DNA of 64,000 nt from Thermococcus camini. Its GTDB lineage: Archaea; Methanobacteriota_B; Thermococci; Thermococcales; Thermococcaceae. Where the stretch lies: positions 1,492,277 to 1,556,276 of the forward strand of contig NZ_LR881183.1 of assembly GCF_904067545.1 (NCBI RefSeq), read 5' to 3'. The notes beneath the pieces are model-generated. The model was not told the DNA's origin. It made no database searches and saw nothing but the letters and a program-made list of their open reading frames with translations. Numbering within the stretch: position 1 is the stretch's first letter; each line of letters begins with the position of its first letter. The position numbers were made by a program, and so were the translations under genes. Positions 10,939-15,408 of this stretch are shown piece by piece.

Positions 10939-12147
10939 ATGGAATACGTTCCCCTTCTTCTGGGGCTGGTTATGGGAGTCGTTACTTCGTATACCGATAT
11001 GAAAACGGGATTCATAGATGATATACACGTTTTTCCAACCCTCGCACTAATCGGAAAGCTCCTCGGATGGGAGAGCGAGGAAAGTGAGGGGCTCCTCGAC
11101 AGGATACCGATTCCAGCCGTCGAAGTTGGCATACTTTACTACCTCTACCAGGGACTCCACACCCAGCACAACACCATCCCGGCCGTTTCCGGGGTTCTGG
11201 GTTTCATTCTGGGACTTATTCTGGGCCTGCTGCTCTATTACATCGGCGCCTGGGCCAGCGGCGACGCCGTAATACTGGCCGGATTCTCCACACTGCTTCC
11301 TTACCCGCCCTCGACCGCGTCAATGGTGCCCCCCTATGCCATAGGCTACCCGCTCTATCCACTGACCGTGCTGCTGAACAGCATCATAGCGGTCTTCCCG
11401 TTCATATTCATCTACTCCTTCGGCGTGATCATCGCCAGAAGGCAGTTCGAGGAGCTAAGAAAGATATTCACGGACAGGGCACGGCTGACCGCTGAGGTTG
11501 CCCTCTGGATAATGGCCGCACTAGGCTTCCGGCTGATGATCTACGAAACGACAGGAGTGGTTATAGCCGGAATCTGGTCGTGGATCCTCACAGTAGCGGT
11601 GATATACGTCCTGGGCAAGTTCAGGAAAGTCGGGGACGTCATCGGAATAGCCGTTCTGGCGTATCTCCTATACATCGACCCGCTGCCGATGGCAAGGGCT
11701 TTCCTAAAGCTCCTCGCAGTGCTGTACCTGTTCAAGGTGTTTTTCTCCCTTGTGAAGTTTATGAGAAGGAGCGTCCTGATGGAAGAGGTGCCCGTCGAAG
11801 CGCTTGAAGAGTGGGATATACTAGGGGAAACCGTGTTCGAGAGGGACGGAGAAATCTACAGGGACAGGGCCGACCTCTTCACGCGTATCAAGAACGCCGT
11901 CACCTCAGCGGACCCCTCCCTCCTCCGGCCCGACTACGGGAGGGTTATTGCATCATCCTCCGCGGAGGGCCTCAGGAAAGAGCAGATAGAAGAGCTCAGA
12001 CGCCTCGTGGAGGAAGGAAGGCTTGAAAACAGGTTCCTGAGAAAGAAGTCGATGCCCTTCGCCCCGGCGCTCTTCCTAGGCTTCCTGATAAGCTACTTCT
12101 GGGGCGACATCTTCTGGTGGATCCAGCTCAAGATAGCGGGACTGTGA
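10939..12147 (+). CDS. Type IV prepilin (class III signal) peptidase, A24 family, with long C-terminal extension
   Basis: An aspartic membrane protease that cleaves class III signal peptides. Both catalytic aspartates are visible: YTDMKTGFI near residue 20 and the GD of WASGDAVILAG near residue 110. Multiple hydrophobic segments surround them. After about residue 240 comes a soluble charged region (residues 270-365) and a final membrane helix, which makes it longer (402) than the typical FlaK/EppA size of about 230. It is translated 9 bases after the pilin gene, so substrate and peptidase are co-expressed. GAGGTGAAATC is the ribosome binding site. Confidence 0.85.
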   Translation: MEYVPLLLGLVMGVVTSYTDMKTGFIDDIHVFPTLALIGKLLGWESEESEGLLDRIPIPAVEVGILYYLYQGLHTQHNTIPAVSGVLGFILGLILGLLLYYIGAWASGDAVILAGFSTLLPYPPSTASMVPPYAIGYPLYPLTVLLNSIIAVFPFIFIYSFGVIIARRQFEELRKIFTDRARLTAEVALWIMAALGFRLMIYETTGVVIAGIWSWILTVAVIYVLGKFRKVGDVIGIAVLAYLLYIDPLPMARAFLKLLAVLYLFKVFFSLVKFMRRSVLMEEVPVEALEEWDILGETVFERDGEIYRDRADLFTRIKNAVTSADPSLLRPDYGRVIASSSAEGLRKEQIEELRRLVEEGRLENRFLRKKSMPFAPALFLGFLISYFWGDIFWWIQLKIAGL

Positions 12148-12148
12148 G

Positions 12149-12162
12149 AAAAGGATTTAAAA
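12149..12162 (+). promoter_or_regulatory. BRE/TATA promoter of the tandem guide-RNA unit
   Basis: AAAAGG (BRE-like) followed by ATTTAAAA (TATA) lies just after the peptidase stop codon. The expected initiation point about 25 bases from the TATA centre is near 12182, where the GC-rich H/ACA stem begins. Confidence 0.65.
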
Positions 12163-12180
12163 CCGCCGTCGAAATTTTAT

Positions 12181-12240
12181 CTGGCCCGGCGCCCGCCCAC
12201 CCCGCGGAGGAGTGAGGCGGGGGTTCCGGCCGGGCCAACA
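12181..12240 (+). ncRNA. Putative H/ACA box guide sRNA (pseudouridylation)
   Basis: A single GC-rich stem-loop is closed by TGGCCCGGC (12182-12190) paired with GCCGGGCCA, and ACA follows immediately at the 3' end (about 12238-12240), as in single-stem archaeal H/ACA RNAs. An upper CCCC/GGGG stem about 14 bases upstream of ACA leaves an internal loop that could be the pseudouridylation pocket. The apical GAGGAGTGAGG contains GA steps expected for a k-turn/k-loop bound by L7Ae. The target is not identified. It sits in an otherwise AT-rich gap with its own promoter. Confidence 0.62.
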
Positions 12241-12297
12241 GGGGGATGACGAGCTTTTGCTTTGCTGACTGTGATGAGCACGCCCTTCACTGACCCC
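12241..12297 (+). ncRNA. C/D box guide sRNA
   Basis: Terminal stem GGGGG (12241-12245) pairs with CCCC (12294-12297). Box C ATGACGA is at 12246-12252, then guide GCTTTTGCTTTG (12 nt), D' CTGA at 12265-12268, C' TGATGA at 12272-12277, guide GCACGCCCTTCA (12 nt) and D CTGA at 12290-12293. The D guide is complementary to UGAAGGGCGUGC, which resembles the conserved 5' part of archaeal 23S rRNA. It follows the H/ACA element with no gap, so both are probably cut from one transcript. Its 3' end overlaps the last 11 bases of the convergent HAD gene. Confidence 0.9.
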
Positions 12298-12919
12298 GTC
12301 CTTCTATCAGCCCCCTGATTATCTCCATGACCTCGTGGAGGCTCTCGACGTTGTGGTCACCCTCAACACCCTCGTGGGGGTTTATCGCTATGCTGACGTC
12401 TGCTTCTTTAAACATGCTCAGGTCGTTGTATCCATCGCCAACCGCTATCGTCAGCTCGGGCTTGAGCTCATCCTTAAGCTCCCTGAGTATAATCCCCTTG
12501 CTCTTGAAGTCAACGAGGGGATTTACTTTTCCGGTAACGACGCCGTTTTCAAAGATCAGCTCGTTGGCAAAAACGTAGTCAACCCCGAGCTCCTTGGCGA
12601 TCCTTCCAGCCAAGCACATGAGACCGCTTGACAGTATCGCTATCTTGAAGTCGTTCTCCTTCAGAAACTCGATGAGCTCCTTTGCCCCATCCATGTACTC
12701 GACCGAGTTCGCCCATTCCATTATTTCTTCTCTTGTGTGCCCCTTCCACAGGGAGGCATCGAGGTCGGCCCACTCCACGTAGTCTATCTTTCCCGCAAAG
12801 AAGAGTTCGGCGTACTCCTTCCCCTTCTCCCAGGTTCCAAACCTCTTGTGAAGCTCCACCCAGCTGGAGATGGATTTGACCAGAGTTCCTTCAAGGTCAA
12901 AGGCTATGAGCCTCACCAT
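12287..12919 (-). CDS. Phosphoserine-phosphatase-like HAD hydrolase
   Basis: The 210-residue protein has all four HAD motifs: motif I AFDLEGTLV (D-x-E variant as in archaeal SerB-like enzymes), motif II AILSSGLMCLAGRIAKELG, a Lys in VDFKSKGIIL and motif IV AVGDGYNDLSMFKEAD. The layout is that of the SerB/phosphoserine phosphatase group, which makes serine from phosphoserine, but ThrH-like or other phosphomonoesterases share it. The ATG at 12919 has a GGTGGTAC ribosome binding site. It converges on the guide RNA unit. Confidence 0.82.
   Translation of the reverse strand: MVRLIAFDLEGTLVKSISSWVELHKRFGTWEKGKEYAELFFAGKIDYVEWADLDASLWKGHTREEIMEWANSVEYMDGAKELIEFLKENDFKIAILSSGLMCLAGRIAKELGVDYVFANELIFENGVVTGKVNPLVDFKSKGIILRELKDELKPELTIAVGDGYNDLSMFKEADVSIAINPHEGVEGDHNVESLHEVMEIIRGLIEGRGQ

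Positions 12920-12958: not shown

Positions 12959-15408
<2,450 letters not shown>

Follow-up and report, generated by a model that had tools for sequence, protein, structure and literature searches.

The locus at positions 12149-12297 of the window (the whole stretch of Thermococcus camini DNA that was analysed, 64,000 nucleotides) raises the question of whether an H/ACA and a C/D guide RNA are encoded there as a single gene, and whether the product acts on rRNA or on the mRNA of the gene that it overlaps. The sequence-only reading had described tandem H/ACA and C/D guides at these positions, and every element of that description was found (Table 1); the locus also gave a full-length match to Rfam RF00065.

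Table 1. Positions of the snoR9 elements and of the flanking genes in the window
Feature	Position	Strand	Basis
Upstream archaeal prepilin-peptidase-like gene	10939..12147	+	ORF; Pfam PF06819 2.8e-29
TATA-like box TTTAAAA, presumed single promoter	12156..12162	+	Sequence; conserved upstream position in relatives
H/ACA sRNA, Pab21 ortholog (5' half of snoR9)	12182..12240	+	5' part of RF00065 match; covarying helices
H/ACA lower stem, 9 bp	12182-12190/12229-12237	+	Fold
5' guide strand CCCGCC, pseudouridylation pocket	12192..12197	+	Complementary to GGCGGG, own 16S 874-879
H/ACA upper stem, 6 bp	12200-12205/12217-12222	+	Fold
Apical K-loop-like GGAGGAGUGAG, putative L7Ae site	12206..12216	+	Conserved GA and UGA in terminal loop of homologs
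3' guide strand UUCC, pseudouridylation pocket	12224..12227	+	Complementary to GGAA, own 16S 868-871
ACA box	12238..12240	+	Sequence; conserved in 43/44 aligned homologs, ACG in one
Box C/D sRNA sR9 (3' half of snoR9)	12241..12297	+	All four boxes and terminal stem
C/D terminal stem GGGG/CCCC	12242-12245/12294-12297	+	Sequence
C box AUGACGA	12246-12252	+	RUGAUGA consensus with one mismatch
D' guide GCUUUUGCUUUG, predicted target 23S G206	12253..12264	+	11 Watson-Crick pairs with own 23S
D' box CUGA	12265-12268	+	Sequence
C' box GUGAUGA	12271-12277	+	Sequence
D guide GCACGCCCUUCA, predicted target 23S G54	12278..12289	+	10 Watson-Crick pairs with own 23S
D box CUGA	12290-12293	+	Sequence
HAD-family hydrolase gene, convergent, distinct from the RNA	12287..12919	-	ORF; Pfam PF00702 8.5e-24

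The match to RF00065 ("snoR9") covered 12182-12307 (model positions 1-128) with 121.8 bits and E = 5.2e-28, the gathering score of the family being 90 bits. Although RF00065 is typed as CD-box in Rfam, its model alignment includes the H/ACA hairpin. Matches to HgcG, sR12, sR30, sR39, and anti-hemB were also obtained from Rfam at a permissive threshold; all of them were under their own cut-offs and were rejected. The RF00065 model also recovered G066:C1:230449-230575 (minus strand), which corresponds to the published coordinates of P. abyssi snoR9; thus, the tandem was already known. In the P. abyssi transcript, the H/ACA sRNA Pab21 was placed 5' of the C/D sRNA sR9, and the annotated transcript covers both (PMC4652768); sR9 was described elsewhere as containing the C/D and H/ACA sRNA together (PMC2241582), and Pab21 was active in vitro after reconstitution with aCBF5, aNOP10, L7Ae, and aGAR1 (PMC3726423). 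It is almost certain that this locus holds the Thermococcus version of snoR9/RF00065, a known gene, with one TATA promoter, Pab21 on the 5' side, and sR9 on the 3' side. Since both Rfam and the literature already contain the tandem, its finding alone changes nothing: the tandem arrangement, the co-transcription, and the in vitro activity of Pab21 have been published, and only the losses of the H/ACA half described below may be unpublished.

The 5' half has the form of an archaeal H/ACA sRNA, namely a hairpin of two stems (9 bp and 6 bp) with an internal pocket, in which the pocket strand UUCC starts (12224) 14 nt upstream of ACA, at the expected distance of about 14-15 nt. The hairpin alone folded modestly better than shuffled sequences (z = -2.3). 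Homologous hairpins (44 sequences) were aligned (alignment A1), and covariation, evaluated over the 43 distinct homologs, was strong. Standard pairs occupied 97.5% of the paired cells of the H/ACA helices, and 9 of the 15 stem pairs were changed on both sides, a level that was reached in none of 500 shuffles; when the partner was slid by one column, pairing fell to 56-57%. The pocket strand UUCC was almost invariant in A1, and GA and UGA were conserved in the apical loop, to which L7Ae may bind. The 3' half begins directly after the ACA box (from 12241) and, with two 12-nt guides and the C, D', C', and D boxes, has the composition of an archaeal box C/D sRNA; the mismatch in its C box was common among the relatives. 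The spacer between D' and C' was a few nt in most loci and was enlarged by about 11-18 nt in L033-L035, L044, L045, L047, L048, L130, and L131, where it was GC-rich and sometimes hairpin-like; of three enlarged spacers that were folded, two gave a local hairpin and one did not.

As for the promoter, the GC-rich hairpin starts about 26 bp downstream of TTTAAAA (12156-12162). A TATA-like match (at least 7 of 8 positions) was found within 50 bp upstream of the H/ACA half in 91% of the 58 intact relatives, usually between -27 and -38 relative to the H/ACA half, as against 26% of shuffles. The two halves might instead be independent neighbouring genes whose adjacency is incidental, with the C/D RNA produced from its own start or by processing of read-through from the upstream gene. 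The C/D part does survive without the H/ACA half in several lineages, and in L130 and L131 it comes immediately after the upstream gene's stop codon and no TATA box intervenes, so that supply by read-through is possible there. In intact loci, however, only a few nt separate ACA from the C/D part, which leaves no room for a promoter between the halves, the H/ACA body is G+C-rich and has no TATA box, and the P. abyssi transcript mentioned above spans both halves. We therefore give very little credence to two separate genes. The earlier claim of one promoter for both guides is instead supported by that transcript, the covariation, the conserved TATA-like box, and the lack of promoter room. Structure, homology, and guide-target complementarity were observed at the locus itself, and co-transcription of both halves is probable by analogy with the orthologs: the single TATA promoter would give a short RNA with the Pab21 half at the 5' side and the sR9 half at the 3' side. 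How the halves might be cut apart, or whether they are at all, can only be surmised.

The 16S and 23S rRNA of the same genome were retrieved by family search and are numbered here from the first position that Rfam matched. In the pocket, the strands CCCGCC and UUCC fitted 16S GGAA-UU-GGCGGG, with U872-U873 left unpaired; this was the single match in 16S and 23S rRNA, and a match was also reached by 64 of 5,000 shuffled pockets (1.3%). The predicted pseudouridine site is presumably at about position 920 in E. coli numbering, within a universal primer site. The D' guide formed 11 unbroken Watson-Crick pairs with 23S 203-213 (G206), and only 1 of 5,000 shuffled guides was as good (0.02%); it had no good target in the 16S rRNA of the genome. 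The D guide formed 10 Watson-Crick pairs with 23S 51-60 (G54), equalled by 142 of 5,000 shuffled guides (2.8%). Since the matches of the D guide and the H/ACA pocket are, taken alone, modestly above those of shuffles, the argument for these targets depends on the matches combined with the near-invariance of both C/D guides. Both C/D guides were nearly unchanged across the loci, an invariance that is somewhat overstated by the selection of the set partly with guide seeds. The UU of the predicted 16S target agrees with the substrate of Pab21, which has a U immediately 3' of the target U (PMC3726423). By analogy with the orthologs, the tandem would be active in both modifications: with Cbf5-Nop10-Gar1-L7Ae bound to it, the H/ACA half would isomerise 16S U872 (the first U of GGAAUUGGCGGG), and the C/D half, bound by L7Ae-Nop5-fibrillarin, would direct ribose methylation of 23S G206 by the D' guide and of G54 by the D guide. 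Note that 1.4 kb from the tandem, at 13695-13816 on the minus strand, there is a 5S rRNA gene separate from the 16S-23S operon.

The 3' end of the RNA overlaps the 3' end of the convergent HAD-family hydrolase gene, as had been noted from the letters, and the overlap amounts to only 11 nt (12287-12297). The further suggestion that the RNA could affect this mRNA is unsupported. An antisense regulator would fit the overlap itself, and the HAD stop codon lies within the D-guide/D-box region in most loci of that orientation. At 60 loci, the RNA runs in the same direction as the prepilin-peptidase-like gene and converges on the HAD gene. At 8 others, however, the cassette is turned round between these two genes, running in the same direction as the HAD gene and converging on the peptidase gene; one further locus (L026) showed the HAD gene alone, in the inverted arrangement; and in the 9 loci of the Pyrococcus group, neither gene adjoins the cassette. 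The inverted-cassette loci were L026, L027, L028, L031, L038, L039, L043, L077, and L079. Since the cassette flips and moves while both guides stay fixed and continue to match rRNA, it is not under selection to pair with one particular neighbour. Such overlap is also ordinary among Thermococcus sRNAs, because 16 of the 17 antisense snoRNAs of T. kodakarensis arise from the 3' end of the sense gene (PMC4247193). Antisense regulation of the HAD mRNA was thus rejected on the inverted or displaced cassettes of the relatives, and we give it hardly any credence.

The two halves of snoR9 differ in their conservation. RF00065 was present in 52 of 61 searched genomes of the genus and in 40 of 41 genomes sampled from the family, and 21 sampled genomes that represented other families of the class gave no match. 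Almost every genome kept the C/D half and its two guides, and the H/ACA half was less conserved: in L037, L067, and L081 it was eroded or truncated, in L038 and L039 it was replaced, and it was absent from L130 and L131, where no TATA box precedes the C/D part, and absent from all examined genomes of groups g6, g4, and g3. At the loci just named and at L068-L079, where the H/ACA half was eroded, truncated, or absent, the C/D part and its guides were retained. One g3 genome yielded, as a remote hit of the H/ACA model, an H/ACA-like RNA that has two hairpins and two ACA boxes (L086, G062:C6:14298-14356). In a tree of the flanking proteins (69 loci, reconstructed with a quick method and with SH-aLRT support only), 8 changes of the H/ACA state were needed, of which at least 6 were forced by branches with support of at least 95%. 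The remnants show that some of these changes are losses; in g3, g4, and g6, the absence may be ancestral rather than a loss.

When H/ACA-less genomes were scanned with a model of the H/ACA part alone (R1; 26 genomes in all), no second Pab21-type pocket came up, and the matches belonged mostly to other H/ACA families. Two of its matches were rejected as carrying no intact Pab21 pocket, one in L090 being a truncated remnant and one in L107 lying inside an apparent protein gene. The 16S target sequence was unchanged in 10 of the checked genomes that have no H/ACA half; the site was not found in a few draft assemblies, probably because these lack the 16S gene. Since no second copy of the pocket was found and the 16S target is unchanged, the Pab21-type pseudouridine guide seems to be dispensable, or to be replaced by something that escaped detection. 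We lean towards the view that a near-invariant C/D gene carries the H/ACA half as a dispensable addition, which was lost or eroded independently in several Thermococcaceae lineages, with the 16S target unchanged and no relocated copy detected. If this is true, the species concerned would not need the pseudouridine at this universally conserved position of 16S, or would owe it to a different enzyme or guide. The intact, eroded, missing, and inverted cassettes form a small natural experiment on whether the pseudouridine near 16S position 920 matters. The labelling of RF00065 as C/D only conceals an H/ACA gene in most species, and the RF00065 label would falsely imply the full tandem in species that have the C/D part alone.

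Compared with RF00065 and with Pab21 and sR9 of P. abyssi, the T. camini copy is the same in design (H/ACA followed by C/D at near-zero spacing, the stem, the pocket, ACA, the four C/D boxes, and both guides) and differs in its letters, with compensatory changes in the stem, and in its genome neighbours. The other Thermococcales RNAs HgcE, HgcF, and HgcG (Pab105, Pab35, and Pab40) share with it H/ACA hairpins having a K-turn or K-loop and ACA, but they have other pockets and no C/D part, and the window scored 21 bits with the HgcG model, well under its cut-off of 77. Co-transcription of a guide RNA with another stable RNA is shared with the tRNA-sRNA Tko-sR44 of T. kodakarensis (PMC4247193) and with the dicistronic RNAs of Nanoarchaeum equitans (PMC3491384); in contrast to these RNAs, the partner at 12182-12297 is an H/ACA guide and not a tRNA.
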